Shown: positions 23,813 to 64,000 of the stretch, in pieces
How positions within the stretch are numbered: the stretch's first letter is position 1
Layout: every line of letters starts with the position of its first letter
NCBI GenBank assembly: GCA_013076295.1
Contig: RQOL01000374.1
Span: 5,260,743 to 5,324,742 of the forward strand
DNA: 64,000 nt
Source of the DNA: Sanderia malayensis
Taxonomy: Eukaryota > Cnidaria > Scyphozoa > Semaeostomeae > Pelagiidae
Direction: 5' to 3'
Notes under the pieces: generated by a model
Told to the model about the DNA's origin: nothing
Databases searched by the model: none
Seen by the model: the letters and a program-made list of their open reading frames with translations, nothing else
Translations under genes and position numbers: made by a program

Positions 23813-24068
23813 TCTATATATACTATTCTACGATCACACGTGACCCGCCGACTGGGAACAATGCCCATTGTCTTTTGAACAATCGACGTTCGACCAAACA
23901 ATGGGATCAAAGGAATTTCGTTGTGATCAAAAAGGCTTTTTTCCTGGAGGTCAATAAGGGTGGAAATGGGTATAGAAATGATCGCTCTATTGCGCTGATC
24001 ACAGTAAAGCTTTCCGCTAAGTTCTACTCCAAACGGTTCGGGAGTTATGGGCCATTTTGTGTTCCGAC

Positions 24069-24083
24069 TTTCTAGAAAGTTCC
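24069..24083. promoter_or_regulatory. Heat-shock element, unit 1
   Basis: TTTCTAGAAAGTTCC: three alternating pentamers TTC-GAA-TTC with exact 2-base spacing, the consensus for HSF trimers. 256 bp inside the 5' end of the Helitron unit. Confidence 0.65.
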
Positions 24084-25280
24084 GAGGACGGAGTTAATGA
24101 GATGCAAAACGAGCAAGGAGAAGCACGTGTTTTTTTAGTTGAAGGGGCGCCAAGTTGCTCGGGTTCAAACGTGAATACGTGCAGGAAATGAATTGTAAAG
24201 ACGTGTCAATTGTTGTCAAGACCTGTGGAAACAATTGGTGAACAATCATTTCAAGGTATTTCCTTTATTCAATTGTTTTTGGCTTTAAATAGCACGAGTT
24301 TTGTTTTGTTTAACCTCACGTTTTTCTTTCGGCTCGAGGGCCTAACCAAAACACGAAGACAATTTTGATTTTCTCGGGTCGTTCTGGGCCGATTTTCTCC
24401 ATTTAAACTTTCGATAACTGTTTATTTACACAAGAACTAAAGTTATATGGCTTTGTTTTTTTTGTTTTGTTGATTTTCCTCTGTTTTTGGACAGTTTTGG
24501 CCGAGTTTGGGTTTTGCTGGAAAACACGAAATTTTCATGCCACACTCGTGTGTTTTGCATTTGCAAAAATCATTTTTTAACCTGCCAAAACTTTGTTTTT
24601 TTCACCCAAATACTTTCGATAAATGTTCGCCAAGCTATTAGCTTCATGTTGATATATTCGTGGGTTCTGTAGGACAAAAATTGGCCACGTTAATTTAATT
24701 TGAAACTTGGTGAATCGTGTTTGAAATGATATTTTTTGCAGGGGTTTGATTTCACTGCCAATTTTGGTCAAGAAAATCATGTCTTGGACTTCAAAAATTT
24801 ACAACTAAAATTGCGAAAAGCTTTTCATATGCACCCAAATACTTTCGATATTTATTTGCCAAGGTATTAGCTTCATGCTGGTGTAATTTGAGTTCAAATG
24901 GACAAATTTTGACCAAGTTAGGGGAATTTTTGTGTTCTTAAAGTTGGCTGATGAATAAATTTTTTCACGGCTTTTGTGTTGGGCTGCACTAAATGCTCTC
25001 TTAAAATTCAAAACAACACTGTTAAGAAATGTGAATATATTTATCGGATTCGCTGTTTCCTCAGCTACAGTTTGATATAATTTTTATTACAGATTGAGTT
25101 TGAATTTTCCAGGATTGATTAAATTTTTGAAGGCAACTTTTTTTTTCAAACTTCACACTGAAGCTATCAACTTTCAGAAGCGGCTTTCAATGGGGCTGCA
25201 GGGTGGGCGCTGGGCGGTCGATTGCCAGGGGGGAGGATTCGACCTCCCACCTTTACTTTCTTTAGAAATGTTGCGTCGTA

Positions 25281-25745
25281 GTATGTATTGTAGGGTATGT
25301 ATTGTAGGTTATGTATTCTAGGGTATGTATTGTAGGGTATGTATCGTAGGGTAGGTATTGTAGGATATGTATTGTAGAGTATGTATTGTAAGGTATGTAT
25401 TGTAGGGTATGCATCGTAGGGTATGTATTGTAGGGTATGTATTGTAGGGCATGTATTGTAGGGTATGTATCGTAGGGTATGTATTGTAGGGTATGTATTG
25501 TAGGGTATGTATTGTAGGGTATGTATTGTAGGGTATGTATTGTAGGGTATGTATTGTAGGGTATGTTTTGTAAGGTATGTATTGTAGGGTATGTATTGTA
25601 GGGTATGTATTGTAAGGTATGTATTGTAGGGTATGTATTGTAGGGTATGTATTGTAGGGTTTGTATTGTAGGGTTTGTATTGTAGGGTATGTATTGTAGG
25701 GTATGTTATGTAGGGTATGTATTGTAGGGTATGTTATGTAGGGTA
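25281..25745. repeat. 14-bp minisatellite, unit 1
   Basis: Monomer TGTATTGTAGGGTA with variants at the second half of TGTATT (CGTA, TTAT) in continuous register. Because 14 is not a multiple of three and the minus strand has few stops, it produces long false ORFs. Confidence 0.97.
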
Positions 25746-26285
25746 TGGGCATGAGCGGTAGCGAATGCAGCGCGCGAAGCGCGCCAACCAGATTAAGCTT
25801 TGTTTACTTGACGGGCTCCGGGGAGGGAGCGAAGCGACCGAACCCGGCCCATGTATGTATGTATGTATGTATGTATGTATGTATGTATGTATGTAGGTAT
25901 GTATGTATGTATGTATGTATGTATGGGCATGAGCGGGAGCGAATGCAGCGCGCGAAGCGCGCCAACCACATTAAACTTTTTGTACTTGACGGGCTCCGGG
26001 AAGCGAGCGTAGCGAGTGCCCCCGGCTAGTCTATATATACTATTCTACGATCACACGTGACCCGCCGACTGTGAACAATGCCCATTGTCTTTTGAACAAT
26101 CGACGTTCGACCAAACAATGGGATCAAAGGAATTTCGTTGTGATCAAAAAGGCTTTTTTCCTGGGGGTCAATAAGGGTGGAAATGGGTATAGAAATGATC
26201 GCTGCATTGCGCTGATCACAGTAAAGCTTTCCGCTAATTTCTACTCCAAACGGTTCGGGAGTTATGGCCCATTTTGTGTTCCGAC

Positions 26286-26300
26286 TTTCTAGAAAGTTCC
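26286..26300. promoter_or_regulatory. Heat-shock element, unit 2
   Basis: Same TTC-GAA-TTC trimer at the same distance from the 5' end of the unit. Confidence 0.65.
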
Positions 26301-27493
26301 GAGGACGGAGTTAATGAGATGCAAAACGAGCAGGGAGAAGCACGTGTTTTTTTAGTTGAACGGGCGGCAAGTTGGTCGGGTTTAAACGTGAATACGTGCC
26401 GGAAATCAATTGTAAAGACGTGTCAATTGTTGTCAAGACCTGTGGAGAGAATTGGTGAACAATTATTTCAAGGTATTTCCTTTATTCAATTGTTTTTGGC
26501 TTTAAATAGCACGAGTTTTGTTATGTTTAACCTCACGTTTTTCTTTCGGCTCGAGGGCCTAACCAAAACATGAAGACAATTTTGATTTTCTTGGGTCGTT
26601 CTGGGCCGATTTTCTCCATTTAAACTTTCGATAACTGTTTATTTACACGAGAACTAAAGTTATATGGCTTTGTTTTTTTTGTTTTGTTGATTTTCCTCTG
26701 TTTTTGGACACTTTTAGCCGAGATTGGGTTTTGCTGGAAAACACGAAATTTTCACGCAACACGCGTGGGTTTTGCATTTGCAAAAATTAATTTTTAAACT
26801 CCCAAAACTTTGTTTTTTTCACCCAAATACTTTCGATAAATGTTCGCCAAGCTATTAGCTTCATGTTGATATTTTCGTGGGGTGTGTAGGACAAAAATTG
26901 GTCATGCTAATTGAATTTGAAAGTTGGTGAATCGTGTTTCAATTGCTATTTTTTGCAGGGTTTTGATTTCACGGCTATTTTTGATCAAGAAAATCATGTC
27001 TTGGACTTCAAAAATGTTCAACTAAAATTGCGAAAAGCATTTCAAATGCACCCAATTACTTTCGATACTTATTCGCCAAGGTATCAGCTTCCTGTTGGTG
27101 TAATTTGAGTTAAAATTGACAAAGTTTGACCAAGTTAGGGGAATTTTTGTGTTTTTAAAGTTGGCTGATGAATAAATTTTTTCACGGCTTTGTTGTTGGG
27201 CTCCACTAAATACTCCCTTAAATTTCAAAACAACACTGTTAAGAAAAGTGAATATTTTTATCGGATTCGCTGTTTCCTTAGCTACAGTTTGATATATTTT
27301 TTATTACAGATTGAGTTTAAATTTTCCAGGATTGATTAAATTTTTGAAGGCAACTTTTTTCTTCAAACTTCACACTGAAGCTATCAACTTTCGGAAGCGG
27401 CTTTCAGGGGGGCAGCGTGGGCGCCGGGCGGTCGCGTGGCAGGGGGGATGATTCGACCTCCCACCTTTACTTTCTTTAGAAATGTGGCGTCGT

Positions 27494-28226
27494 GTGTATT
27501 GTAGGGTATGCATTGTAGGGTATGTATTGTAGGGTATGTATTGTAGGGTATGTATTGTAAGGTATGTATTGTAGGGTATGTATTGTAGGGTATGTATTGT
27601 AAGGTATGTATTATAGGGTATGTATTGTAGGGTATGTATTGTAGGGTATGTATTGTAGGGTATGTATTGTAGGGTTTGTATTGTAGGGTATGTATTGTAA
27701 GGTATGTATTGTAGGGTATGTATTGTAGGGTATGTATTATAGGGTTTGTATGGTAGGGTATGTATTGTAGGGTATATATTGTAGGGTATGTAGTGTAGGG
27801 TATGTATTGTAGGGTATGTATTGTAGGGTATGTTATGTAGGGTATGTATTGTAGGGTATGTATTGTAGGGTATTTATTGTAGGGTATTTATTGTAGGGTA
27901 TGTATTGTAGGGTATGTATTGTAGGGTATGTATTGTAGGGTATGCATTGTAGGGTATGTATAGTAGGGTATGTATTGTAGGGTATGTATTGTAGGTTATG
28001 TAGTGTAGGGTATGTATTGTAAGGTATGTATTGTAGGGTATGAATAGTAGGGTTTGTATTGTAGGGTATGTATGGTAGGCTATGTATTGTAGGGTATGTA
28101 TTGTAGGGTATGTATTGTAGGGTATGTATTGTAGGGTATTTATTGTAGGGTGTGTATTGTAGGGTATGTATTGTAAGGTATTTATTGTAGGGTATGTATT
28201 GTAGGGTATGTATTGTAGGGTATGTA
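27494..28226. repeat. 14-bp minisatellite, unit 2
   Basis: Same monomer. A variant block (TTTGTATGGTAGGG ... ATATATTG ... GTAGTG) is shared with unit 7, so these two arrays are related. Confidence 0.97.
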
Positions 28227-28350
28227 TGTAAGTAGGTATGTATGTATGTATGGGCATGAGCGGCAGCGAATGCAGCGCGCGGAGCGCGCCAACCAAATTA
28301 AGCTGTGTTTACTTGACGGGCTCCGGGGAGGGAGCGAAGCGACCGAACCC

Positions 28351-28620
28351 GGCTCATGTATGTATGTATGTATGTATGTATGTATGTATGTATGTATGTA
28401 TGTATGTATGTATGTATGTATGTATGTATGTATGTATGTATGTATGTATGTATGTAGGGTATGTAGGGTATGTATGTATATTATGTATGTAGGGTATGTA
28501 TGTAGGGTATGTATGTATATTATGTATAGTATTTATATATAGTATATAGGGTATGTATTGATGTATATATTTATGTATAGTATCTATAGTAAGTATGTAT
28601 GTATTGTAATGTTATGTAAT
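28351..28620. repeat. TGTA microsatellite, unit 2
   Basis: Over 25 pure TGTA units directly after the internal 3'-like module, decaying into TATATA before unique DNA begins at about 28620. Confidence 0.95.
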
Positions 28621-29395
28621 GCTTCTAACTTTTGTAATTTTTCAAAAAAGATCACTGCAAAACAGACACTGTCCTTCTTTATGAACAAATGATCTTCAAT
28701 TAACAAAAATGAACTCACCTCACTATAATAATGTTCACAAGGAATGACCGCAAACATTCACTTTATGTCTGGGCACCTGAAAAACAAGAAGAAATCATGT
28801 AATATACTTTATAGCATGTTGGCTCATCTCAGTTCTTTGCATGTGGCCTGAAGTCTATAAATGTAAGTAATTTATTGTAACTGCAAATCATTAATTACCT
28901 CCACCTCATTTATTCACCCAGTCAAACAACGTACTTACCTTCTTACCTTTGGTCATCCTTCCATGGCCTACTCTTATTATTGGTATTTTTACCAACAGCA
29001 ATATTTCTGAACATATAACAACTCACGAAAAATCAATGTACTTCATTCTCCATGTGTCCGTGGTGGAATACTACCTATGTTTTTGCTGTTGTTGTGTTCA
29101 ACAACCTCTGTCCAATACATCATCACCATCAAAATCCCCACAACGCCATGGTGAGAAATGATCTATTTCTAGATAACATGCATAATAAAGTCCACCAAAT
29201 TATTTCTTATACTTAGAGATTACAAAACGACACTTCTCCCATCATCAACAAACAACAACGTCGTTTTCTCTTCGGTGCCAAGTACATGCTGTTCCTGTTA
29301 TTGTTTTCAACTGCCTCACTGTCGAATGGATCATCATTAGAATAATAATAACAACAACGAGGCACGCCGCCGAATAGAGGCCACAAACTTTCAAA
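28620..29395. other. Unique DNA, no gene recognised
   Basis: First unique segment of Helitron unit 2. A diverged duplication is visible on the minus strand (the segments near 29110 and 29330 both contain GATGAT ... TTGGACAG/TTCGACAG ... GTTGAA-ACAA). Weak splice-like sites occur at 28722 and 28777, but no coding frame holds. Confidence 0.4.
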
Positions 29396-29425
29396 TTGGC
29401 GCGAATTTAAAATAGCAATTGCGTC
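29396..29425 (+). promoter_or_regulatory. E2F-like / TTGCGTC promoter module upstream of Rep/helicase
   Basis: TTGGCGCGAATTTAAAAT followed 13 bases after GGCGCGAA by TTGCGTC. The same arrangement occurs at 39728-39756. A GTAAGT donor at 29549 fits a non-coding first exon running toward the Rep gene (ATG 30562). Confidence 0.35.
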
Positions 29426-30561
29426 TTTACTTTCTTGCTATACCAAATGTAAAATTTGTTGTTAGAAATTGGCAGATAATTATAATTATATTACAATTTT
29501 TTGTATATATCGACAAAAGCATTGTTAGAAAGATTGTTTTATTTTATTGGTAAGTTGAATGTTGAAATTTACCTTTCCTAAACAATCCTTATTTACACCG
29601 ACAGCGTCTTCTTTAAAGCAACCGTTGTCTTTCATTGCATCGCAATGCACTGTCTTTTTAGCGTTTCTGTCATGTGGTTTTTTAGCGTTTCTGTCATCTG
29701 GCTTCTCCGTTAATGTCCAGCCACTTTTGTTATTATTAACAAAGTAAAGTAAAGTGAAGTTTTTTATAAAGTATGTATTTCACTCCTTCACTTCAGCATG
29801 ACATTTTCTTCTCATTTCTTCACTCAACTCAATCAACATAATAATATACAAGTTAAACATGTTAAACATTCCTTAGTATTAATGGCAACTTTCTCTTTAC
29901 AAGATAATCAATTCATCCAAATCATCTTTCTTCTTTTGTAAAAACAGGATTTCCAAAAAAGTTGAATCCTCAAAATATTTGGTGAGTGTCACAACAATTG
30001 CTCTTATACGAAGCCTATTTTAATTAATGTTTAAATGCCTCACTCTGTAATGTACATTCATATACCAAATTTTAAGCTTAACTACTATATTTAAAGTAGT
30101 ATTAACAATTGCAACAAATTCTTATCAATAGAAAGCAAATTTACTGCACAATGCAAATAAAATCTAGCCTTTACAAACACATCAAATGTAGGTTTATAGA
30201 TTTTTCTTTGCAAGAATGAAATGGATGATTAACTTTTCAAATCCATTCATTATCACAACTGTTTTCCTTTTAGTTGTTAAAGAACACAATAGAGAGAGTG
30301 ATGTAGGTCATAAGATAAAGTGCTCCAATATTTTTTATTGGAAACTTTCAATAACCAATAATTTAATTCAACAATCAAGAGTAATTCCAAACATTTCTTA
30401 CAATTATGTTTTAAATTATTTATTTTATCTTGCAGCTCACCACAAAACAACAAACCCATCACAAAACTTGCTCACAAAAATCACTCTTATTTCAAATTTT
30501 CACTTAAATTGGGTTGCATATAAAACACATTTTTTTCTTTTTTTATATTATCTCTTGCAAA

Positions 30562-33500
30562 ATGCCAAGAAAAGCCAAAAAGGGCATTACCGGCACCAGT
30601 CGTCGTAATCAAATGCGGGATGCAGCTCGCCGCCGTCGTGAGAATAACCAACAGCCTCATCCTGCTGATTTGCCACCTGATAATATGGTACAGGAAGCAG
30701 TGAATGATCTTCACCAGTTGCAACAAGAATACCCTCAGCAACCAGCCCCAGAATATCAACCACTCCCACTTCATTATCCACAAATGCAGGCATTATATGT
30801 GCCATGGCAACTACCTGTGATGCTTCCCCACTACGGACTTATAGCAGTTCACAACCAATAAACAATGGCTTACAATATCCTGCAGCACTGGCCCCTCAAC
30901 TTCAGGTACACAACTCAATAATTTCTGCTAATCTTTTCAAAATAAGATAACTCTATATTATACAGCTTTTTGTAATTAAAAATATCAAATTAAACCAGTT
31001 ATTATATCAACCAAATTATCAATATTTTTCCATCTGCAGGTACCGCCGATGGTTATGCAGTTGCAACCACCCCTTCTGAATCGTAATCATGAAGGTCAGC
31101 AGCAATACAAACGGCAGATGTGGAGATGCTTAATGTAAATCAAGCTCAAAATGAGAATGAGGTAAATTAAAATTCTTACCACAACCTAACTACAGTTAGG
31201 CAATTCCATTTTCCATAACCCAAATGCCTCATGTAAATTGCCCTATTTTACACATGTATCATACGTTTTCATATGAATTTTTATCAATTTACATAATCAC
31301 ACAGCAATGACGTTTAAATTTCCAATAACTAATTACTTCATGTAACTAATTTCATTTAATTTTCATTATCAACAGATACGGCCAATGCAGATGCAACCCG
31401 AAACACATATTGAAAATGAATATAATGAAATTGAAAGGCCGGCACAACCTGATGAAATCAACGTGGAACAACACATTCCCATTCCACATGATAATCAGGT
31501 AAAACAGACTACCATCACAATTGGCTTAGAATACACCAGTCATTCTCTATAGCACCATGTCAGCAAATTATTTTGCTCTCTAAATAGACATATCTTCACA
31601 AGTTTCAGTTTTATGCATTTCAAAACACATGACTGAATTATATTAACTAAGATTACATTGAATTTCAGGATCCACAAGTATTGCCTGCTGCTATGCAATT
31701 GCAAGCCAACGTTCAAATGACAATGAAGAGAATGAAATAGCGGTACAACCACAAGAAGTTGAAATGCAACACGAAATCCCACCACAACACCAAGATGATG
31801 TCCCTCAACCCATCGAACAACAAGCAAGGGAAGTAAATCAACCTATTGTTGAAATTCCTCAATTCTCCCCAATGCCTCATCATCTTGGAAAATGACGAGG
31901 ACATGTATTCACTGTGAAGCAAAATACTTTCGAGAGGAACTCAACTCAAGAAGGCAATACAACAAATGTTGCTTGGGAGGATTAATAACTCTCGATCCCA
32001 TTCAACCACCCCCGGCAAATGTGATGCATTTATACACTGGAACTACTGATGAATCTAAATATTTTCTCAAAAATTTCCGTAGATACAATTCACTAATGGC
32101 GATGGCATCCTGGACAGCTAATGTTGTAAGACACGCTAATGCAGGACCACCAGTCATCACCATACATGGAAGTGCATACCATATGACAGGTAAATATAAT
32201 GTCCGTCTCTTATCTCTTATATGATGCTACATTTTCATATAATAGCTTCACATGATGAAACGGATGTTGACAGAACACTCAATTCATTTCCGACCCAACA
32301 TGCAATGGATAAGCTCTCTATGCTTGCCTGAATATGAAGAGTTGTCCAATCGAAAATCAAGGCGCTTTATGATGCTTTCATAACAAACATTTGCTGCATT
32401 GAAAATTACATTTGATATAACGAAGTACAATTTGTAATGTTTCCTTGCATTCAACAGGGGTAACAGAAACTGACAGGTCCAGAAAATATGCAGAATTATA
32501 TATTATGGACACCCAACAGGCACTGCAAGAACGTCAGAACACAGCCAGAGAACAAAACTTGGACTTAGACATGGTGGCGCTGCTGCAAAACGAATTAATG
32601 GCAGTAAATCGGTTTGCTCAACATTTTAAAACAATGGGAGAAGTACTGGAAGAGCAAAGGCAGCAAGCCATTGCCAATGACCAGCCTATTCCCACGTTCA
32701 AGATGATTATTACCGGTCGCCCAGAACAAGATCGAAGATATGACAATCCTACTGCCAGAGAAATTGCAGCAGTCTACACTACACGCAATGGCGGTGCTCC
32801 TAATCCCGAGAATAGAGAGCTTCAAGTTCGAACAAGGCGTGGTAATCTTATGAAGATTAATGCCTTAGCTCCTGTTGCGGATCCTCTAACCTATCCATTG
32901 TTGTTCTTTCAGGGTGATCGTGGATACAGCTTGGACCTTCAACGTCTACCTACACGTGAAGGACAAGGCCAGCAAAATGCTGATCGTAACCACCGTATTA
33001 GACTCACAATCGCCGAATATTATTCGTACCGAATACAAGTCAGAAATCAACTGTCTACCATCCACAGGGCAACACTTCTCTTTCAACAATATTTAGTGGA
33101 CGCATACACCAAAATAGAAGGAAACAAGCTCAACTGGATTTTGCACAATCAACGGCAATTACGTGCTGACAGTTATCGAGGCCTAATGGATCACCTGAAC
33201 AGAAGGGCTGAAATCGAAAATCAAATGGCCAGGGCAAACAATCCCAACGAACCCCTTCATTTGATGTCGGTCGTGTTGTGATACTTCCCTCATCTTTTTC
33301 AGGCAGTCAACGAAATATGTACCAGAACTTTCAAGATGCAATGACTATCGTCAGAAGTATGGCAAGCCTGACATCTTCCTAACCATGACGGCCAATCCCA
33401 GATGGAAGGAGATTTCAGAGAACATTCTACCACACCAGAAGGCAAATGACCGGCCTGACATCGTCACACGAGTATTTCAACTCAAACTACAAGAACTACT

Positions 33501-36500
33501 GGAAGATATCCTTCACAAGCACATTCTGGGACACACTATTGCACATGTATATGTCATCGAATTTCAGAAGAGAGGACTACCACACGCTCACATGATTCTG
33601 TTCCTGTCTGAGGCTGATAGACCGCGAACACCCGAAGAGGTAACATCTACAACAATAATTTATATATAGAGTACGATATATAATCATCTGTTGTATTGCT
33701 TAGTAAAACACAATGCATTTTGATGTGTAGAACTTACATGTGATATTTTTCCTCGAAACCTACAGGTAGATCGACTCATATCAGCTGAAATTCCGGACCC
33801 ACAGGATGCAAGATATCACAAGTTAGTGCTGAAGCACATGACACATGGACCATGCGGTGATATAAACCCCGGATGTGTTTGCATGGAGAATAACAAATGC
33901 AAGAAACGATTTCCGAAAGATCGCACTGCCGAAACACAACTTAATGCGAATGGTTATCCACTCTACAGACGACGCTGTCGTCACCCCAGTCAATCTAGAA
34001 GATCGACTTCTAGATGATACATGGGTTGTGCCACATAATCGCTATCTTCTACTCAAGTATCAGTGTCACATTAATCTCGAAATATGTAGCACTGTGAAGT
34101 CCGTGAAATATATTTTCAAATATATTCATAAAGGACAAGATATGGCAACGTGGAAATTCTGGAAGGACAGCAGCAACAAGTACCTCAAGATATTGAGCAC
34201 GATGAAGTACGCCAATACATCAACGCTCGGTATATTGGACCACACGAAGCTGTTCACAGAATATTCCAATTTTCCATGCACGAGAAAAGTCACACTATAA
34301 AACGTCTGCATGTTCATTTACCTGATCAGCAGACCGTATACTTTCAGGATAATGGAAGGGTCGAACAATTACAAAACATCAATGAAAAAACCACACTGAC
34401 GTCTTGGTTTGAATTGAATGCACAAGACCCGGCTGCACGCCAATATCTCTATCACGAGATTCCTGAACACTATGTTTTCAACGAGCGCACCAAAACATGG
34501 AAAGCAAGACAGCGGAGAACACTGCCTGTCATAGGCAGAATATATCAAGTTCACCCACGACCATGTGAGCAAAGGTTCGCACTGAGACTATTGCTTCTCC
34601 ATAAACGAGGTGCCACGTCGTTTGAAGATCTTCGTATGATAGAAGGAAACCTATGCAATTCCTTCAAAGACGCTGCTTTAGCTCTAGGTCTGTTGGAAGA
34701 TGATGCTGAAATCATACGCTGTTTGGAGGAGGCAGTCATTTTCAACATGCCAGTACAACTGAGACAGTTGTTTGCAACATTACTCCTTTTTCAAACACCT
34801 TCTGATATCGCAGCACTCTTCAACATGTTCAAAGAAGCATTAAGTGAAGACTTTGTACGACGTGATCAAGTCAATCATCCAGATATGGCCATAGCTTTTG
34901 AAGACCGACACATGTATCAATGTCTACACGACATTGACGAAAATTTGAAAGTACATGGTCAATCGATCACTAATTATGCTGACCTTCCTCAACTTCCAGC
35001 CGACTATGTCATTCCTGAACGAGGTACTAATGTGTTATTTTCAAATATGTACTGTATTAGTAAGAATATATTAATGTATCCTAACATCGTGCAGACAAGG
35101 GCATTTACGTATTTTTGCACAATGATTTTCCTAGCTTTCTTTCCAATGTTATTGCAAAATATTTCACTTTTTATTACAGAGGAACATGACATCGATGTTG
35201 GCAATGCCAGAGAGGAAGGAGAACGAATGCTGGCCGCATTGAACCCTGAACAGCGAGCCATATACACGGGAATCACTGATGCTATCAACGCGCAATCCAA
35301 ACAGAACTGTCACTTTGTTGACGGGCCGGCTGGAACCGGCAAAACTTTCCTTTACAACACGTTGGTTCACAATCTGCAAGCCAATGGACATAAAGTTCAG
35401 TGCATGGCGTGGTCAGGAATTGCTGCAACACTGCTCATAAATGGTAGAACTTCACACTCTACCTTTCAAATTCCTATACCACTTCAAGCTGAATCAACGT
35501 GCAATGTCAAGAGACAGAGCAGGAGAGCACAGGTATTGCGTGAAACTACCCTATTCATATGGGATGAAGCTTCCATGATTCCCGCACTTGCATTACAAGC
35601 AGTCGACCGACTGCTTCGAGACATTACACATGTCGACAGACCATTTGGTGGCAAGTTCATGCTACTTGGTGGTGATTTCAGACAAGTTCTACCTGTCGTC
35701 ACGAAAGCAGGAAGGGAAAGAATTGTAGCAGAGACTCTAAAATCACACCAGATCATTGATCTATGGACAAAGTTTCAGCAGCATCGTTTACACACCAACA
35801 TGAGAGCCGTTCAAGATGATTCATACCGTGAATTCTCAGAATGGCTTCTCAGACTTGGCAACAAGCAAGAAGCACACGATGCACTGGACAACGTCATTCT
35901 GCCACAACAGATATGCACTTCGTCTAAAGAAGACATGCTGAACTTCATTTTTCCCAGGCCGAACACACCAGATTCACACCTAATGATGGATCCTGTAACA
36001 ATGTCTGAACGCTGTTGCCTGACTCCGAAGAATGACTTATCACATCAAGTGAACGACTTAATTCTGGACAGACTTCAAACAGCCGAAAGAACTTATTACA
36101 GCACAGACAGTGTTGTCACAGACGATCCAGATGAGGAAGAGGCCTACCCCATTGAATTTCTCAACCAACTCACTCCGAATGGAATGTCGTTGCACAGACT
36201 TAAACTCAAGGTAGGAAGAGTACAATATTTCATCCTATTAACATTAAATTATTATGTGCAAAGGTAGTGCACCATAAAAAAGCCGTCATTAATCACAAAA
36301 ATATTCATTGCATTAGGTTGGTGCAACGATCATTCTTCTGCGGAATCTCAATCCAAAGAAAGGTCTTTGCAACGGAACAAGACTCATAGTTCGGCATCTC
36401 CGACGTCACGTGATTACGGCAGAGATCATTACGAAGGAGCACAGAGGACAACGGGTCATGATTCCCAAGATCACAGTCTCCACTCAGGACACGGAAATGC

Positions 36501-39725: not shown

Positions 39726-39727
39726 GC

Positions 39728-39756
39728 GGCGCGAAATTTAAAATTTTTCTTGCGTC
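39728..39756 (+). promoter_or_regulatory. E2F-like / TTGCGTC promoter module upstream of the 146-aa gene
   Basis: GGCGCGAAATTTAAAAT then TTGCGTC 14 bases after GGCGCGAA, matching the module at 29396. It is followed by non-coding exon-like segments (donor GTAAGT at 39820; exon 39974-40012) leading to the ATG at 40245. Confidence 0.35.
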
Positions 39757-44718: not shown

Positions 44719-44759
44719 TGTATGTATGTATGTATGTATGTATGTATGTATGTATGTAT

Positions 44760-51256: not shown

Positions 51257-51271
51257 TTTCTAGAAAGTTCC
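51257..51271. promoter_or_regulatory. Heat-shock element, unit 5
   Basis: Intact TTC-GAA-TTC trimer. Confidence 0.65.
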
Positions 51272-52458: not shown

Positions 52459-53218
52459 TAGTATGTATTGTAGGGTATGTATTGTAGGGTATGTATTGTA
52501 GGGTATGTATTGTAGGGTATGTATTGTAGGGTATGTATAGTAGGGTATGTATTGTAGGGTATGTGTTGTAGGGTATGTATTGTAGGGTATGTATTTTAGG
52601 GTATGTATTGTAGAGTATGTATTGTAGGGTATGTATTGTAGGGTATGTATTGTAGGGTATGTATTGTAGGGTATGTATTGTAGGGTATGTGTTGTAGGGT
52701 ATGTATTGTAGGGTATGTATTGTAGGGTATGCATTGTAGGGTGTGTATTGTAGGGTATGTGTTGTAGGGTATATATTGTAGGGTATGTATTGTAACGTAT
52801 TTATTGTAGGGTATGTATTGTAGGGTATGTATTGTAGGGTATTTATTGTAGGGTATGTATTGTACAGTATGTATTGTAGGGTATGTATTGTAGGGTATGT
52901 ATCGTAGGGTATGTTATGTAGGGTATGTATTGTAGGGTATTTATTGTAGGGTATTTATTGTAGGGTATGTATTGTAAGGTATTTATTGTAGGGTATGTAT
53001 TGTAGGGTATGTATTGTAGGGTATGTTATGTAGGGTATGTTATGTAGGGTATGGGTTGTAGGGTATGTATTGTAGGGTATGTATTGTAGGGTTTGTATTG
53101 TAGGTTATGTATTGTAGGGTATGCATTTTAGGGTATGTATGTAGGGTATGTATTGTAGGGTATGTATTGTAGGGTATGTATTGTATGGTATGTATTGTAG
53201 GGTATGTATTGTAGGGTA
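52459..53218. repeat. 14-bp minisatellite, unit 5
   Basis: Same monomer, no clear higher-order pattern. Confidence 0.97.
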
Positions 53219-53335
53219 TGTATGTATGTATCGGCGTGAGCGGTAGCGAATGCAGCGCGCGAAGCGCGCCAACCAGATTAAGCTTTGTCTACTTGACGGG
53301 CTCCGGGGAGGGAGCGAAGCGACCGAACCCGGCTC

Positions 53336-53425
53336 ATGTATGTATGTATGTATGTATGTATGTATGTATGTATGTATGTATGTATGTATGTATGTATGTA
53401 TGTATGTATGTATGTATGTATATAT
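53336..53425. repeat. TGTA microsatellite, unit 5
   Basis: Pure TGTA units between an internal 3'-like module and the terminal module. Confidence 0.95.
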
Positions 53426-53787
53426 GGGCATGAGCGGGAGCGAATGCAGCGCGCGAAGCGCGCCAACCACATTAAACTTTTGTTGCTTCGGGGGCTCCGG
53501 GAAGCGAGCGTAGCGAGTGCCCCCGGCTAGTCTCTATTATATAATCTACGTCGACACGTGACCCCAACCCGCCAAACAATGCTCCATTGTCTCTTGAACA
53601 ATCGACGTTCGAACAAACAATGGGATCAAAGGAATTTCGTTGTATCCATAAAGGCTTTTTTTTGGGCTGCAAATAAGGGTGCAAATCGGTATAGAAATGA
53701 TCGCTGCATTGTGCTGATGACAGTGTACTATTTGGCTAATTTCTAACCCCAGCGGTTCCGGAGTTATGGCCCATTTTGTGTTCCGAC

Positions 53788-53802
53788 TTTCTAGAAAGTT
53801 CC
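53788..53802. promoter_or_regulatory. Heat-shock element, unit 6
   Basis: Intact TTC-GAA-TTC trimer. Confidence 0.65.
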
Positions 53803-54992
53803 GAGGACCAAGTTAATGAGATGCAAAACGAGCAGGGAGAAGCAGGTGTTTTCGTAGTGAAACGGGCGGCAAGTTGCTCGGGTTTAACCGTGAATACGTG
53901 CCGGAAATCAATTGTAAAGACGTGTCAATTGTTCTCAGGACCTGTGGAGACAATGTGTGGACAATCATCTCAAGGTATTTCCTTTATTTCATTGTTTTTG
54001 GCTGAAAATAGCACGAGTTTTGTTTCGTTTAACCTCACGTTTTTCTTTCGGCTCGAGGGCCTAACCAAAACACGAAGACAATTTTGATTTTCTCGGGTCG
54101 TTCTGGGCCGATTTTCTCCATTTCAACTTTCGATAACTGTTTATTTACACGAGAACTAAAGTTATATGGCTTTGTTTTTTTTCTTTTGTCGATTTTCCTC
54201 TGATTTTGGACAGTTTTGGCCGAGTTTGGGTTTTGCTGGAAAACACGAAATTTTCAAGCAACACGCGTGTGTTTTGCATTTGCGAAAATTATTTTTTAAC
54301 CTGCCAAAACTTTGTTTTTTTCACCCAAATACTTTCGATAAATTTTCACCAAGCTATTAGCTTCATTTTGATATTTTCGTGGGTTCTGTAGGACGAAAAT
54401 TCGCCACGTTAATTTAATTTCAAAGTTGGTGATTCATGTTTGAAATGCTATTTTTTGCACGGGTTTGATTTCACGGCTATTTTTGATGAAGAAAATCATG
54501 CCTTGGACTTCAAAAATTTACAACTAAAATTGCGAAAAGCATTTCAAATGCACCCAATTACTTTCGATACTTATTCACCAAGGTATCAGCTTCATGTTGG
54601 TGTAATTTGAGTTCAAATGGACAAATTTTGACCAAGTTAGGGGAATTTTTGTGTTCTTAAAGTTGGCTGATGAATAAATTTTTCCACGGCTTTTGTGTTG
54701 GGCTGCACTAAATACTCTCTTAAAATTCAAAACAAAACTGTTAAGAAATGTGAATATATTTATCGGATTCGGTGTTTCCTTAGCTACAGTTTGATATATT
54801 TTTTATTAGAGATTGAGTTTAAACTTTCCAAGATTGATTAAATTTTTGAAGGCAACTTTTTTTTTCAAACTTCACACTTAAGCTATCAACATTCGGGAGC
54901 GGCTTTCAGGGGGGCAGCGTGGGCGCGGGGCGGTCGCTTGGCAGGGGGGAGAATCGACCTCCCACCTTTACTTTCTTTAGAAATGTGGCGTC

Positions 54993-55598
54993 GTGTGTAT
55001 TGTAGGGTATGTATGGTAGGGTGTGTATTGTAGGTTATGTATTGTAGGGTATGTATTGTAGGGTATGTATTGTAGGCTATGTATTGTAAGGTATGTATTG
55101 TAGGGTATGTATAGTAGGGTATGTTATGTAGGGTATGTATTTTAGGGTATGTATTGTAGGGTATGTTATGTAGGGTATGTATTGTAGGGTATGTATGGTG
55201 GGTATGTATTTTAGGGTATTTATAGTAGGGTATGTATTGTAGGGTATGTATAGTAGGGTATGTTATGTAGGGTATGTATTGCAGGGTATGTATTGTAGGG
55301 TATGTATTGTAGGGTATGTATGGTAAGGTATGTATTGTAGGGTATGTATTGTAGGGTATGTATTGTAGGGTATGTATTGTAGGGTATGTATTGTAGGGTA
55401 TGTATTGTAGGGTATGTATGGTAGCATATGTATTGTAGGATTATGTATTGTAGGGTATGTATTGTAGGGTATGTATTGTAGGGTGTGTATGGTAGGGTAT
55501 GTATTGTAGGTTATGTATTGTAGGGTATGTATTGTAGGGTATGTATTGTAGGGTATGTATTGTAGGGTATGTATTGTAGGGTATGTATTGTAGGGTAT
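54993..55598. repeat. 14-bp minisatellite, unit 6
   Basis: Same monomer, no clear higher-order pattern. Confidence 0.97.
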
Positions 55599-55979
55599 GT
55601 ATGTATGTATGTATGTATGGGCATGAGCGGGAGCGAATGCAGCGCGCGAAGCGCGCCAACCACATTAAACTTTTTGTACTTGACGGGCTCCGGGAAGCGA
55701 GCGTAGCGAGTGCCCCCGGCTAGTCTATATATACTATTCTACGATCACACGTGACCCGCCGACTGTGAACAATGCCCATTGTCTTTTGAACAATCGACGT
55801 TCGACCAAACAATGGGATCAAAGGAATTTCGTTGTGATCAAAAAGGCTTTTTTCCTGGGGGTCAATAAGGGTGGAAATGGGTATAGAAATGATCGCTGCA
55901 TTGCGCTGATCACAGTAAAGCTTTCCGCTAAGTTCTACTCCAAACGGTTCGGGAGTAATGGCCCATTTTGTGTTCCGAC

Positions 55980-55994
55980 TTTCTAGAAAGTTCC
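55980..55994. promoter_or_regulatory. Heat-shock element, unit 7
   Basis: Intact TTC-GAA-TTC trimer. Confidence 0.65.
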
Positions 55995-57186
55995 GAGGAC
56001 GGAGTTAATGAGATGCAAAACGAGCAGGGAGAAGCACGTGTTTTTTTAGTTAAACGGGCGGCAAGTTGCTCGGGTTTAAAGGTGAATAGGTGCCGGAAAT
56101 CAATTGCAAAGACGTGTCAATTGTTGTTAGGACCTGTGGAGACAATTGGAGGACAATTATTTCAAGGTATTTCCTTTATTCAATTGTTTTTGGCTGAAAA
56201 TAGCACGAGTTTTGTTTTGTTTCACCTCACGTTTTTCTTTCGGCTCGAGGGCCTAACCAAAACACGAAGACACTTTTGATTTTCTCGGGTCGTTCTGGGC
56301 CGATTTTCTCCATTTAAACTTTCGATAACTGTTTATTTACACGAGAACTAAAGTTATATGGCTTTGTTTTTTTTGTTTTGTTGATTTTCCTCTGTTTTTG
56401 GACAGTTTTAGCCGAGATTGGGTTTTGCTGGAAAACACGAAATTTTCACGCAACACGCGTGTGTTTTGCATTTGCGAAAATTAAATTTTAACCTGCCAAA
56501 ACTTTGTTTTATCCCCCAAATACTTTCGATTAATGTTCGCCAAGCTATTAGCTTCATTTTGATATTTTCGTGGGTTCTGTAGGACAAAAATTGGCCACGT
56601 TAATTCAATTTGAAAGTTGGTGAATCGTGTTTTAAATGCTATTTTTTTCACGGGTTTGATTTCACGGCTATTTTTGATGAAGAGAATCATGTCTTGGACT
56701 TCAAAAATGTACAACTAAAATTGCGAAAAGCTTTTCATATGCACCCAAATACTTTCGATATTTATTTGCCAAGGTATTTGCTTCATGCTGGTGTAATTTG
56801 AGTTCAAATGGACAAATTTTGACCAAGTTAGGGGAAGTTTTGTGTTTTTAAAGTTGGCTGATGAATAAATTTTTTCACGGCTTTGTTGTTGGGCTCCAAT
56901 AAATACTCCCTTAAATTTCAAAACAACACTGTTAAGAAAAGTTAATATTTTTATCGGTTTCGCTGTTTCCTTAGCTACAGTTTGATATATTTTTTATTAC
57001 AGATTGAGTTTAAATTTTCCAGGATTGATTAAATTTTTGAAGGCAACTTTTTTCTTCAAACTTCACACTGAAGCTATCAACTTTCGGAAGCGGCTTTCAG
57101 GGGGGCAGCGTGGGCGCCGGGCGGTCGCGTGGCAGGGGGGAGGATTCGACCTCCCACCTTTACTTTCTTTAGAAATGTGGCGTCGT

Positions 57187-58376
57187 GTGTATTGTAAGGT
57201 ATGTATTGTAGGGTATGTATTGTAGGGTATGTATTGTAGGGTATGTATTGTAAGGTATGTATTATAGGGTATGTATTGCAGGGTATGTATTGTAGGGTAT
57301 GTATTGTAGGGTATGTATTGTAGGGTTTGTATTGTAGGGTATGTATTGTATGGTATGTATTGTAGGGTATGTATTGTAAGGTATGTATTGTAGGGTATGT
57401 ATTGTAGGGTATGTATTGTAGGGTTTGTATGGTAGAGTATGTATTGTAGGGTATATATTGTAGGGTATGTAGTGTAGGGTATGTATTGTAGGGTATGTAT
57501 TGTAGGGTATGTTATGTAGGGTTTGTATTGTAGGGTATGTATTGTATGGTATGTATTGTAGGGTATGTATTGTAAGGTATGTATTGTAGGGTATGTATTG
57601 TAGGGTATGTATTGTAGGGTTTGTATGGTAGAGTATGTATTGTAGGGTATATATTGTAGGGTATGTAGTGTAGGGTATGTATTGTAGGGTATGTATTGTA
57701 GGGTATGTTATGTAGGGTATGTATTGTAGGGTATGTATTGTAAGGTATGTATTGTAAGGTATGTATTGTAGGGTATGTATTGTAGGGTTTGTATTGTAGG
57801 GTATGTTATGTAGGGTATGTATTGTAGGGTATGTATTGTGAGGTATGTATTGTAAGGTATGTATTGTAGGGTATGTATTGTAAGGTATGTATTGTAGGGT
57901 ATGTATTGTAGGGTATGTATTGTAAGGTATGTATTGTAGGGTATGTATTGTAAGGTATGTATTATAGGGTATGTATTGTAGGGTATGTATTGTAGGGTAT
58001 GTATTGTAGGGTATGTATTGTAGGGTTTGTATTGTAGGGTATGTATTGTATGGTATGTATTGTAGGGTATGTATTGTAAGGTATGTATTGTAGGGTATGT
58101 ATTGTAGGGTATGTATTGTAGGGTTTGTATGGTAGGGTATGTATTGTAGGGTATATATTGTAGGGTATGTAGTGTAGGGTATGTATTGTAGGGTATGTAT
58201 TGTAGGGTATGTTATGTAGGGTATGTATTGTAGGGTATGTATTGTAGGGTTTGTATTATAGGTATGTATTGTAGGGTATGTATTGTAGGATATGTATTGT
58301 AGGGTATGTATTGTAGGGTATGTATTGTAGGGTATGTATTGTAGGGTATGTATGTAGGGTATGTATTGTAGGGTAT
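57187..58376. repeat. 14-bp minisatellite, unit 7
   Basis: The variant TTTGTATGGTAGAG at about 57424 recurs 196 bp later, exactly 14 monomers, and a related block recurs about 504 bp further. Confidence 0.97.
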
Positions 58377-58399
58377 GTATGTATGTATGTATGTATGTA

Positions 58400-59245
58400 T
58401 GGGCATGAGCGGCAGCGAATGCAGCGCGCGAAGCGCGCCAACCAGATTAAGCTTTGTCTATTTGACGGGCTCCGGGGAGGGAGCGAAGCGACCGAACCCG
58501 GCCCATGTTTGTATGTATGTATGTATGTATGTATGTATGTATGTATGTTTGTATGTATGTATGTATGTATGTATGTATGTAGGTAGGTATGTATGTATGT
58601 ATGTATGTATGTATGTATGTATGTATGTATGGGCATGAGCATGAGCGAATGCAGCGCACGAAGTGCGCCAACCACAGGCGAGCGTAGCGAGCTAACCCAT
58701 TGTATGTAGAGTTGAAAAGGGCATGAGCGTAAGCGAATGCAGCGCACGAAGTGCACCAACCACAGGCGAGCGCAGCGAGCTAACCCATTGTACGTGGGGT
58801 TGAAACTGGCATGAGCGGGAGCGAATGCAGCACGCGAAGCGCGCCAACCAGATTAAGCTTTGTTTACTTGACGGGCTCCGGGGAGGGAGCGAAGCGACCG
58901 AACCCGGCCCATGTATGTATGTATGTATGTATGTATGTATGTAGGTATGTATGTATGTATGTATGTATGTATGGGCATGAGCGGGAGCGAATGCAGCGCG
59001 CGAAGCGCGCCAACCAGATTAAGCTTTGTTTACTTGACGGGCTCCGGGGAGGGAGCGAAGCGACCGAACCCGGCCCATGTATGTATGTATGTATGTATGT
59101 ATGTATGTATGTATGTATGTATGTATGTATGTATGTATGGGCATGAGCGGGAGCGAATGCAGCGCGCGAAGCGCGCCAACCACATTAAGCCTTTGTTGCT
59201 TTGGGGGCTCCGGGGAGGGAGCGTAGCGACCGGGCCCCCGGCTAG
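58400..59245 (+). repeat. Cluster of six Helitron 3'-end modules with TGTA spacers
   Basis: Each module starts GGCATGAGCG and carries AGCGAATGCAGC followed by the hairpin GCGCGC-GAA-GCGCGC (GCGCAC-GAA-GTGCGC in some). Internal ones end CCCGGCCCATGTATG or GAGCTAACCCATTGTA; only the last ends CCCCCGGCTAG, the functional-type terminus. Confidence 0.9.
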
Positions 59246-59502
59246 TCTATATATACTATTCTACGATCACACGTGACCCGCCGACTGTGAACAATGGGCT
59301 ATTGTTTGGTGAACAATCGACGTTCGAAAAAACAATGGGATCAAAGGAATTTCGTTGTGATCAAAAAGGCTTTTTTCCTGGGGGTCAATAAGGGTGCCAA
59401 TTGGTATCAAAATGATCGCTGCATTGCGCTGATCACAGTAAAGCTTTCCGCTAATTTCTACTCCAAGTGGTTCGGGAGTTATGGCCCGTTTTGTGTTCCG
59501 AC

Positions 59503-59517
59503 TTTCTAGAAAGTTCC
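59503..59517. promoter_or_regulatory. Heat-shock element, unit 8
   Basis: Intact TTC-GAA-TTC trimer. Confidence 0.65.
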
Positions 59518-60469
59518 GAGGACCGAGTTAATGAGATGCAAAACGAGCAGGGAGAAGCACGTGTTTTTTTAGTTGAACGGGCGGCAAGTTGCTCGGGTTT
59601 AAACGTGAATACGTGCCGGAAATCAATTGTAAAGACGTGTCAATTGTTGTCAAGACCTGTGGAGACAATTGGTGAACAATTATTTCAAGGTATTTCCTTT
59701 ATTCAATTGTTTTTGGCTGAAAATAGCACGAGTTTTGTTTTGTTTCACCTCACGTTTTTCTTTCGGCTCGAGGGCCTAACCAAAACACGAAGACAATTTT
59801 GATTTTCTCGGGTCGTTCTGGGCCGATTTCCTCCATTTAAACTTTCGATAACTGTTTATTTACACAAGAACTAAAGTTATATGGCTTTGTTTTTTTTGTT
59901 TTGTTGATTTTCCTCTGTTTTTGGACAGTTTTGGCCGAGTTTGGATTTTGCTGAAAAACACGAAATTTTCAAGCAACACGCGTGTGTTTTGCATTTGCGA
60001 AAATTAATTTTTAACCTGCCAAAACTTTGTTTTTTTTCACCCAAATACTTTCGATAAATGCTCGCCAAGCTATTAGCTTCATGTTGATATTTTCGTGGGG
60101 TGTGTAGGACGAAAATTGGCCACGTTAATTTAATTTGAAACTTGGTGAATCGTGTTTGAAATGCTATTTTTTGCAAGGGTTTGATTTCACGGCTATTTAA
60201 ATCATGTCTGGGACTTCAAAAATTTACAACTAAAATTGCGAAAAGCTTTTCATATGCACCCAAATACTTTCGATAAATGTTCGCCAAGCTATTAGCTTCA
60301 TTTTGATATTTTCGTGGGTTCTGTAGGACGAAAATTCGCCACGTTAATTTAATTTGAAAGTTTTGGTGTTTTTAAAGTAGGTTGATGAATTCATTTTTTC
60401 ACTTTCAGAAGAAACGGCTTTTAGGGGGGCGGCAGGGTGGGCGCTGGGTGGTCGCTTGCCAGGGGGAAG

Positions 60470-63400
60470 TATGGTAGGGTGTGTATGGTAGGGTATGTAT
60501 CGTAGGGTATGTATTGTAGAGTATGTATTGTAGGGTATGTTTTGTAGGGTATTTATTGTAGGGTATGTTATGTAGGGTATGTATTNNNNNNNNNNNNNNN
60601 NNNNNNNNNNNNNNNNNNNNNNNNNNNNNNNNNNNNNNNNNNNNNNNNNNNNNNNNNNNNNNNNNNNNNNNNNNNNNNNNNNNNNGGGAGATCGACCTCC
60701 CACCTTTACTTTCTTTAGAAATGTTGCGTCGTAGTATGTGTTGTAGGGTATGTATTGTAGGGTATTTTTTGTAGGGTATGTATTGTAGGGTATTTATTGT
60801 AGGGTTTGTATTGTAGGGTAAGTATAGTTGTATTGTGGGTATGTTTGTAGGTTTTTTGTATTTTTGTATTTTAGGGTATGTATTGTAGGGTATGTATGTA
60901 GGGTATGTATGTATTGTAGGGTATGTATTATAGGGTATGTATTGTAGGGTATTTATTGTAGGGTATGTATTGTATGGTATTTATTGTAGGGTATGTATTG
61001 TAGGGTATGTATAGTAGGGTATGTTATGTAGGGTATGTATTGTAGGGTATGTATTGTAGGGTATGTTATGTAGGGTATGTATCGTAGGGTATTTATTGTA
61101 GGGTATGTATTGTAAGGTATGTATTCTAGGGTATGTATTGTAGGGTATGTATTTTAGGGTATGTATTCTAGGGTATGTATTGTAGGGTATGTATTGTAGG
61201 GTATGTATTGTAGGGTATGTATTGTAGGGTATGTATTGTAGGGTATGTACTGTAGGATATGCATTGTAGAGTATGTATTGTAGGGTATGTATTGTAGGGT
61301 ATGTATTGTAGGGTATTTATGGTAGGGTATGTATTGTAGGGTATGTATTGTAGGGTATGTATTGTAGGGTATGTATGGTAGGGTATGTATGGTAGGGTAT
61401 GTATTGTAGGGTATTTATTGTAGGGTATGTATGGTAGGGTATGTATGGTAGGGTTTGTATGGTAGGGTATGTGTTGTAGGGTATGTTATGTAGGGTATGT
61501 GTTGTAGGGTATGTATTGTAGGGTATGTATTGTAAGGTATGTATTGTAGGGTATGTATTGTAGGGTATGTATTGTAGGGTATGTATTGTAGGGTATTTAT
61601 TGTAGGGTATGTATTGTAGGGTATGTATTGTAGGGTATGTATTGTAGGGTATATATTGTAGGGTATGTATTGTAAGGTATGTATTCTAAGGTATGTATTG
61701 TAGGGTATGTATTGTAGGGTATGTATTGTAGGGTATTTATTGTAGGGTATGTATTGTAGGGTATGTAGTGTAGGGTATGTATTGTAGGGTATATATTGTA
61801 GGGTATGTATTGTAAGGTATTTGTTGTAGGGTATGTATTGTAGGGTATGTATTGTAGGGTATGTACTGTAGGATATGCATTGTAGAGTATGTATTGTAGG
61901 GTATGTATTGTAGGGTATGTATTGTAGGGTATGTACGGTAGGGTATGTATTGTAGGGTTTGTATTGCAGGGTAAGTATAGTAGGGTATGTATTGTAGGGT
62001 ATGTGTTGTAGGGTATGTGTTGTAGGGTATTTATTGTAGGGTATTTATTGTAGGGTATGTATTGTAGGGTATGTATTGTAGGGTATGTATGTAGGGTATG
62101 TATTGTAGGGTATGTATTATAGGGTATGTATTGTAGGGTATTTATTGTAGGGTATGTATTGTATGCTATTTATTGTAGGGTATGTATTGTAGGGTATGTA
62201 CAGTAGGGTATGTTATGTAGGGTATGTATTGTAGGGTATGTATGGCAGGGTATGTATGGTAGGGTATGTATTGTAGGGTATTTATTGTAGGGTATGTATG
62301 GTAGGGTATGTATGGTAGGGTATGTTATGTAGGGTATGTATTGTAGGGTATGTATTGTAGGGTATGTTATGTAGGGTATGTATCGTAGGGTATTTATTGT
62401 AGGGTATGTATTGTAAGGTATGTATTCTAGGGTATGTATTGTAGGGTATGTATTTTAGGGTATGTATTCTAGGGTATGTATTGTAGGGTATGTATTGTAG
62501 GGTATGTATTGTAGGGTATGTATTGTAGGGTATTTACTGTAGGATATGCATTGTAGAGTATGTATTGTAGGGTATGTATTGTAGGGTATGTATTGTAGGG
62601 TATTTATGGTGGGGTATGTATTGTAGGGTATGTATTGTAGGGTATGTATTGTAGGGTATGTATGGTAGGGTATGTATGGTAGGGTATGTATTGTAGGGTA
62701 TTTATTGTAGGGTATGTATGGTAGGGTATGTATGGTAGGGTTTGTATGGTAGGGTATGTATTGTAGGGTATGTTATGTAGGGTATGTGTTGTAGGGTATG
62801 TATTGTAGGGTATGTATTGTAAGGTATGTATTGTAGGGTATGTATTGTAGAGTATGTATTGTAGGGTATGTATTGTAGGGTATTTATTGTAGGGTATGTA
62901 TTGTAGGGTATGTATTGTAGGGTATGTATTGTAGGGTATATATTGTAGGGTATGTATTGTAAGGTATGTATTCTAGGGTATGTATTGTAGGGTATGTATT
63001 GTAGGGTATGTATTGTAGGGTATGTATTGTAGGGTATTTATTGTAGGGTATGTATTGTAGGGTATGTAGTGTAGGGTATGTATTGTAGGGTATATAGTGT
63101 AGGGTATGTATTGTAAGGTATTTGTTGTAGGGTATGTATTGTAGGGTATGTATTTTAGGGTATGTATTCTAGGGTATGTATTGTAGGGTATGTATTGTAG
63201 GGTATGTATTGTAGGGTATGTATTGTAGGGTATGTATTGTAGGGTATGTACTGTAGGATATGCATTGTAGAGTATGTATTGTAGGGTATGTATTGTAGGG
63301 TATGTGTATTGTAGGGTATTATGTAGGGTATGTATTGTAGGGTATGTATTGTAGGGTATGTAATTGTAGGGTATGTATGGTAGGGTATGGGTATGGTAGG

Positions 63401-64000
63401 GGTATGTATATGTAGGGTATTTATTGTAGGGTATGTATGGTAGGGTATGTATGGTAGGGTTTGTATGGTAGGGTATGTATTGTAGGCTATGTTATGTAGG
63501 GTATGCGTTGTAGGGTATGTATTGTAGGGTATGTATTGTAAGGGTATGTATTGTAGGGTATGTATTGTAGGTATGGTATTGTAGGGTATGTATTGTAGGG
63601 TAATTTATTGTAGGGTATGTATTGTAGGGTATGTATTGTAGGGTATGTATTGTAGGTATATATTGTAGGGATGTATTGTAGGTATGTATTGTAGGGTATG
63701 TATTGTAGGTATGTATTGGTGTATGTTATTGTAGGGTATTATTGTAGGGTATGTATTGTAGGGCATGTAGTGTAGGGTATGTATTGTAGGGTATATAGTG
63801 TAGGGTATGTATTGTAAGGTATTTGTTGTAGGGTATGTATTGTAGGGTATGTATTGTAGGGTATGTACTGTAGGATATGTATTGTAGGGTATGTATTGTA
63901 GGGTATGTATTGTAGGGTATGTATTGTAGGGTATGTATTGTAGGGTATGTATTGTAGGGTATGTACTGTAGGATATGCATTGTAGAGTATGTATTGTAGG
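60470..64000. repeat. 14-bp minisatellite, unit 8 (interrupted by gap)
   Basis: Split by Ns at 60586-60685 and by a 48-bp 5'-module tail. The marker GTACTGTAGGATATGCATTG recurs at about 61247, 61863, 62534, 63248 and 63963, a higher-order period of 0.6-0.7 kb. Register is poor at 63300-63760. Confidence 0.95.
60586..60685. other. Assembly gap (100 N)
   Basis: Exactly 100 Ns, a usual placeholder for a gap of unknown size, between two minisatellite blocks; a Helitron 5'-module tail begins directly after it. Confidence 0.99.

Follow-up and report, generated by a model that had tools for sequence, protein, structure and literature searches.

A tandem array of complete Helitrons in Sanderia malayensis, probably built by serial insertion at resident terminal junctions

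Introduction

How do complete Helitrons from several subfamilies come to stand in a row, end to end, with no host base between one element and the next? The question is raised by a stretch of 64,000 nucleotides (the window) from the scyphozoan Sanderia malayensis, which lies at 5.26-5.32 Mb on the 5.91-Mb contig C303 of an assembly of 184 Mb in 918 contigs. An initial annotation, made from the letters of the window, described a head-to-tail array of Helitron units and offered two routes to it: insertion of a whole rolling-circle concatemer, or one insertion after another at a resident Helitron's 3' end. Our analysis indicates that the array probably consists of complete Helitrons of several subfamilies which arrived by serial single insertions at resident terminal junctions, directed by the Rep protein.

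Tandem Helitrons as such are known. Tandem Helitrons or derived elements are reported from bats, maize, rice and Drosophila (PMC5148889, PMC5876387), and a paper on Fusarium places FoHeli4 two bases from another and mentions three tandem copies in Metarhizium. A literature search over titles and abstracts, with most subscription papers outside its scope, gave no description of Helitrons that prefer their own terminal junctions, and the scale of the arrangement in S. malayensis and the evidence for self-targeting look new.

Results

All seven junctions in the window (26029/26030, 43152/43153, 45304/45305, 51000/51001, 53530/53531, 55723/55724 and 59245/59246) are base-perfect where the initial annotation had placed them, and no host base separates the units. 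The upstream unit ends in CTAG at six of them and in CGAG at 45301-45304, and TCT(A/C)TAT follows directly in each case (below, a hyphen marks such a join). When 30 kb of further sequence was read, the row was found to extend beyond the window, and the earlier count of at least eight units became at least ten, all in a single orientation (Table 1). Unit 8 is followed by unit 9 of another 5' type and this by a tenth unit of the same type as unit 9 (TCTAATATATATATTC in both). TC is the start of all ten units, the 3' end is CTAG in eight and CGAG in one of the nine, and each of the nine bounded units has both ends. The seven units bounded within the window measure 2152-17123 bp, in agreement with the 2.15-17.1 kb given before. 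A single gap of 100 N is present at 60586-60685, within unit 8, and all seven junctions of the window are clear of N runs.

The count of joined versus solitary ends that the initial annotation had proposed as a check was carried out for the whole genome, using a 33-base pattern for the 5' end which covers three head types, with its reverse as control, and a separate pattern for the 3' end with a control of its own. The patterns accept only intact ends of certain types, and the totals are therefore lower bounds. There were 668 matches to the 5' pattern and 638 to the 3' pattern, and none to either control, numbers that chance would not produce. AG stands directly before 517 of the 668 5' ends, A, C or T before 125, and 26 are others. 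The flanks of 30 of these 125 were inspected by eye, some being duplicates (L011/L024/L027 and L021/L023): a family tail lies at most five bases upstream in 22, with joins such as CTA-TC, CTAGTA-TC, CTAGTCTA-TC and CTAGTC-TC, one is at a contig end, and seven are without a family tail. A precedes six of these seven. Four of them (L021, L023, L028, L038) are host-flanked, the family motif being absent from the 1.5 kb upstream, and L012, L013 and L029 appear by eye to lie beside or within other family sequence. The host-flanked 5' ends that follow A are unit 1, L021, L023 (its flank is that of L021), L028, L038 and L075. CTA-TC junctions, which lack the terminal G, were observed at 23 places in the genome.

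At the 3' side, T followed by a base other than C was found after 46 of the 638 ends. Twelve of these were read. In nine the sequence continues into a head of another type or one short of its first bases, L053, L056, L057 and L058 being near-duplicates; the remaining three comprise one head with extra bases, one host-like flank with T as the next base (L063) and one uncertain case (L054). Among 100 3' ends listed, 48 run directly into a listed 5' end, and the others may precede head types that the 5' pattern does not accept. Tandem arrangement is common for intact ends of this Helitron family in this genome. Tandem Helitrons are known, as remarked earlier, and what the initial annotation regarded as unusual is what this family ordinarily shows in S. 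malayensis.

The most informative copies belong to a subfamily defined by a 38-base head signature (CCAGGAAACGC..), which occurs 19 times in the genome. In 13 of these the head follows a family tail at an exact CTAG-TC join, and in one it follows the CTAG of another hairpin (L082); the rest are one CTA-TC, two CTAGTCTA-TC and two host A-TC (L028, L075). Family tails therefore precede 16 of the 19 copies, the other CTAG hairpin one, and host DNA two. The 16 tails represent 15 distinct sequences, only those of L018 and L080 being alike, and they have a median of 13 differences over about 95 bp. Ten of the copies, that on contig C172 included, show 98 % identity or more with the C172 copy over 888 bp (Table 1). 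Eight of the ten stand behind family tails (seven distinct), one behind the L082 hairpin and one in host DNA, and their joins are six exact CTAG-TC (including L082), one CTA-TC, two CTAGTCTA-TC and one host. These near-identical copies behind many different tails were observed directly, and since most of the youngest copies sampled have inserted at the ends of older ones, they suggest that the ends of the element serve it as a target for insertion. The C172 copy has Rep reading frames resembling the ones in unit 2, again in more than one frame. At L082 (C866:536878) the hairpin whose CTAG directly precedes a young copy is a different one that folds strongly (CTAGGGAGG..CCTTCCTAG); it is perhaps the 3' end of another Helitron family.

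Divergence between adjacent 5' modules, which the initial annotation had also proposed to compare, was assessed in a sample of 38 heads. Adjacent heads in the window are 42-97 % identical, represent several subfamilies and are mostly not close relatives; the downstream neighbour is the closest match of the upstream unit in one of nine adjacent pairs (units 1 and 2). Among the best 40 of 1422 candidates scored, the best non-self match of unit 1 is 96 % identical over 888 bp, and six other genomic places are closer to unit 1 than its neighbour unit 2 is. The unit 2 head is, within the sample of heads, 98.9 % identical to a unit on contig C121. Neighbours within the window share the 5' type in two of seven cases, compared to 3.0 expected. 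Tails and the heads that follow them are unlinked over 42 unique junctions (Mantel r -0.03, p 0.64) and over 35 nonredundant ones (r -0.12, p 0.96). 5' and 3' types are mixed both within units and across junctions, as judged from counts.

As window neighbours are mostly not close relatives, the window is not a simple concatemer, and a whole-array concatemer is ruled out for it by the divergence between neighbours. Elsewhere, near-identical neighbours are found on C68 (99.8 %) and C109 (99.7 %), and on C45, at 1.35-1.37 Mb (L047 and L048; 1.351-1.374 Mb), two different Helitron units together form a repeat of about 4.33 kb. Six near-equally spaced 3' ends are listed there, and in two 10-kb stretches that were read the heads are about 100 % identical; the repeat is a composite of two Helitrons amplified as one. 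Such neighbours mean that local amplification also occurs, and a second process, recombination or rolling-circle amplification, seems to multiply units locally in some arrays, so that both processes seem to operate. Of the two routes first offered, repeated insertion at a resident 3' end thus fits the window better, and concatemer-like stretches are present in other arrays.

Information on insertion order was obtained from the C172 pair. Its upstream unit (10665) has no relative above 97 % among the best 40 of 1540 candidates scored, whereas the downstream signature copy (13734) has a listed relative at 100 % by rounding, and the downstream unit is therefore probably the newcomer. Units 1 and 2 point in the same direction, with the best matches of 96 % and 98.9 % given above. 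Two kinds of footprint were found. At 5' ends it is CTAGTCTA-TC, and at 3' ends, in L059 and L062, CTAG-TATATACTATTC. They fit those expected from insertion between A4 and T5 of a resident 5' end, the two kinds having been read at different places.

The Rep gene that was noted as embedded in the array is real. Unit 2 contains a Helitron_like_N domain, a two-tyrosine stretch and a PIF1 helicase, and its GLPHAHMILFL and KYIFKYIHKG both align to Helraiser (7lcc). We take the former to be the HUH motif and the latter the two-tyrosine motif. The helicase matches PF05970 with an E value of 6e-59, and Helraiser 7lcc is its best solved-structure match (E 2e-119). The coding region is spread over several frames, which may reflect introns or decay. 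With TC and CTAG ends, a Rep with HUH and two tyrosines, and a PIF1 helicase, the units carry canonical Helitron features.

The units of the window share a plan: a head of about 1 kb starting TCT(A/C)TAT, a 14-bp satellite, tail-like modules beside ATGT repeats, and a GC-rich tail which terminates in CTAG or CGAG. Arrays of the 14-bp satellite unit are present in all eight window units, bearing out the internal satellites described initially. The 3' end has a putative GC-rich imperfect stem; one tail was folded with DNA parameters, and its stability was not above that of shuffled sequences (z 0.62). The tail-like modules inside the units have C(T/C)CATGT and then ATGT repeats where a tail would have CTAG, and some of the modules recur in tandem every 146-194 bp. 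They are possibly disabled terminators left by end bypass. Unit 9 also contains a 115-bp tandem repeat of 7.3 copies, similar by eye to the 88-bp repeat in the tails of units 3 and 7. Other elements are found nearby. Remains of two other DNA transposons lie in the window, one encoding a THAP/HTH_Tnp_4 protein and the other a Tc5-type DNA-binding domain with a DDE_1 transposase, and a BEL/Pao-type retrotransposon frame lies downstream of the start of unit 10.

Table 1 Coordinates of the array and of related features (window numbering, unless a contig or locus is given)
Feature	Position	Strand	Length	Remarks
Unit 1	23813..26029	+	2217 bp	5' type A; first in row; host A before it (..CATCAA-TC)
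Unit 2	26030..43152	+	17123 bp (17.1 kb)	type-A head; holds Rep/helicase gene
Unit 3	43153..45304	+	2152 bp	5' type B; ends CGAG
Unit 4	45305..51000	+	5696 bp	5' type C; holds 14-bp satellite, ~295 copies
Unit 5	51001..53530	+	2530 bp	5' type A
Unit 6	53531..55723	+	2193 bp	5' type C
Unit 7	55724..59245	+	3522 bp	5' type A
Unit 8	59246..64000, on to 68114	+	8869 bp	5' type A; ends CTAG
Unit 9	68115-71289	+	3175 bp	outside window; head starts TCTAATAT; ends CTAG
Unit 10	from 71290	+		outside window; head starts TCTAATAT
RepHel region	32421..36736	+		unit 2; several reading frames
Helitron_like_N	32421-33669	+		unit 2 RepHel
Two-tyrosine stretch	33866-34300	+		unit 2 RepHel
PIF1 helicase	34150-36736	+		unit 2 RepHel
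14-bp satellite (GTATGTATTGTAGG)n	46770..50886	+		inside unit 4
Internal tail-like modules	25827, 28332, 44840, 53312, 58481, 58887, 59053			window
115-bp tandem repeat	L041:6381-7223			unit 9
Remains of DNA transposons	306-1160 and 2878-4446	+		window
BEL/Pao-type frame	L043:5113-9114		1333 aa	Peptidase_A17, RVT_1, DUF1759
Signature copies, at least 98 %	C172, C170, C676, C241, C191, C759, C866, C105, C462 (431-1314), C102

Discussion

The heterogeneous neighbours of the window, observed directly, and the young copies behind many different tails are best accounted for by single elements arriving one after another at the ends of residents. More tentatively, we propose that Rep may treat the resident CTAG-TC as a site-specific attachment site, the first insertion seeding an array which captures most later ones. 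For Helraiser, circles in which CTAG is joined precisely to TC are reported (PMC4778049, PMC5876387) and can act as donors (PMC4778049), and in vitro its transposase cleaves the plus strand at the CTAG-TC joining point, one product being held through a 5' phosphotyrosine (PMC5876387). The resident array junction is arranged in the same way as this circle junction, from which we infer that Rep could open the resident and the incoming junction alike and exchange their ends. Insertion would take place after a resident 3' CTAG or, within an existing array, between CTAG and TC. Rep, with its HUH motif and two tyrosines, would nick the resident hairpin-CTAG-TC just as it would cut this junction in a circular Helitron; the 3'-OH of the resident CTAG would be joined to the 5'-TC of the newcomer, whose own CTAG would be connected to the T downstream. 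Every insertion would create a further junction, making arrays self-renewing landing pads. The nicking of residents, the circular donors and the order of insertion are inferred and should be taken as a proposal.

An exact CTAG-TC could come from insertion after a resident CTAG (at G/T) or from canonical insertion between a host A and the T of a resident at its 5' side. Growth on the 5' side uses the normal A-T target and yields the exact junction without a host base, it is one of two readings offered for a pair of Helitrons at maize r1 (PMC2267711), and it agrees with the A before six of the seven sampled 5' ends that lack a family tail and before unit 1. It would require, however, that near-identical copies were later hit on their 5' side by many different units, and the one such upstream unit that was searched genome-wide, in the C172 pair, has no relative above 97 % among the matches listed. 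Under 5'-side growth unit 1 should be the youngest, yet its terminal branch in a tree of 69 heads is 0.026 compared to 0.0015 for unit 2, and insertions inside existing junctions (CTAGTCTA-TC) also occur. We consider this route unlikely. That separate Helitrons were joined through collapsed repeats during assembly is hardly credible: the units are rich in satellite, many short contigs are among the loci and unit 8 has its gap, but AG directly precedes the 5' end at 517 places and the window junctions are free of N.

Processes that multiply existing junctions must also be weighed. Homologous recombination or unequal exchange, between units or between circles and arrays and perhaps through the 14-bp satellite, could copy a few original junctions. 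The mixing of 5' and 3' types within units, the satellite in all eight window units and the recurrence of some junctions with both sides alike, including that of units 1 and 2, would agree with it. A circle integrated by a single crossover keeps its own tail before its own head, whereas the signature heads show 15 tails; exchange in the satellite would keep each tail paired with the head across its junction, and no tail-head linkage was seen over 42 junctions. This explanation is rather improbable, and circle integration by homologous recombination was rejected as the main route on account of the many different tails, although some look-alike junctions exist. Rolling-circle concatemers or multimer circles inserted whole would explain the near-identical neighbours on C68 and C109 and the two-unit repeat of C45. 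For the array as a whole they are very improbable, as neighbours in the window differ in subfamily and by 3-58 %, and a concatemer, like a recombining circle, would have put its own tail before its own head, which the 15 different tails of the signature copies do not show.

Several observations weigh against serial insertion at resident junctions. In the listed contigs, some of which are duplicates, neighbours of the same 5' type are in excess (16 of 26 compared to 9.5 expected, p 0.008, for units below 9 kb). Four of the 19 signature copies are just 96-97 % identical to the C172 copy, and five are not among the full-length matches listed. The junction between units 1 and 2 has look-alikes on C121 and at L066 with both sides similar: the head differs by 1.1 and 1.9 %, respectively, and the last 120 bp of the tail by 1.6 and 0 %, the tail is 96-97 % identical over 250 bp, and the upstream head on C121 is 95 % identical. 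This junction may be partly inherited, and the pair is therefore weak evidence on order, which was compared in two pairs through the closeness of surviving relatives. No age gradient along the array was seen by eye in the terminal branches of the eight units; its absence agrees less with growth strictly from one end than with insertions at whichever junction. Finally, insertion between A and G of CTAG was rejected as the source of the 23 CTA-TC junctions, as the expected reciprocal CTAGG-TC was found nowhere in a genome-wide search, and serial insertion leaves these junctions unexplained.

The S. malayensis family shares with Helraiser/Helibat1 of bats the TC and CTAG ends, a RepHel with HUH and two tyrosines, and the PIF1 helicase. 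Bat elements are reported at host AT sites, whereas the copies matched here mostly lie on the ends of relatives, and the Sanderia family is distinguished by its 14-bp satellite and its repeated pseudo-tails. The closest parallel in arrangement is found at maize r1, where unlike Helitrons are joined CTAG-TC with a G/T junction (PMC2267711) and the other of the two readings is a noncanonical insertion that used the GT at the resident's 3' end; that is one pair with its order unresolved, compared to hundreds of junctions and near-identical copies behind many residents in Sanderia. The remaining parallels are cited through a review (PMC12628747). Plant centromeric Helitrons amplified by rolling circles (Xiong et al. 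2016) likewise form tandem arrays, of several to several hundred repeats, but these are described as truncated copies, many of which combine several 5' ends with one 3' end, whereas all nine bounded Sanderia units are intact-ended and of mixed subfamilies, and copies of the family are spread over many contigs. In Drosophila (McGurk and Barbash), tandem transposon copies are ascribed mainly to insertion-site preference; those are dimers, and in Sanderia long mixed Helitron rows are joined at one exact junction. Helitrons and Helentrons of oyster and other species also contain a tandem satellite between conserved ends, the satellite there being dispersed or expanded, whereas in Sanderia whole elements stand end to end.

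Tandem Helitrons have been regarded as evidence of rolling-circle concatemers. Repeated insertion into resident ends accounts better for the window array, and tandem Helitrons therefore need not mean concatemers. If Rep targets its own terminal junction, this would provide a testable model for the growth of Helitron arrays and satellites. Self-targeting, if true, would be a homing and largely host-sparing mode of transposition, by which a eukaryotic transposon limits harm to genes by landing on itself.

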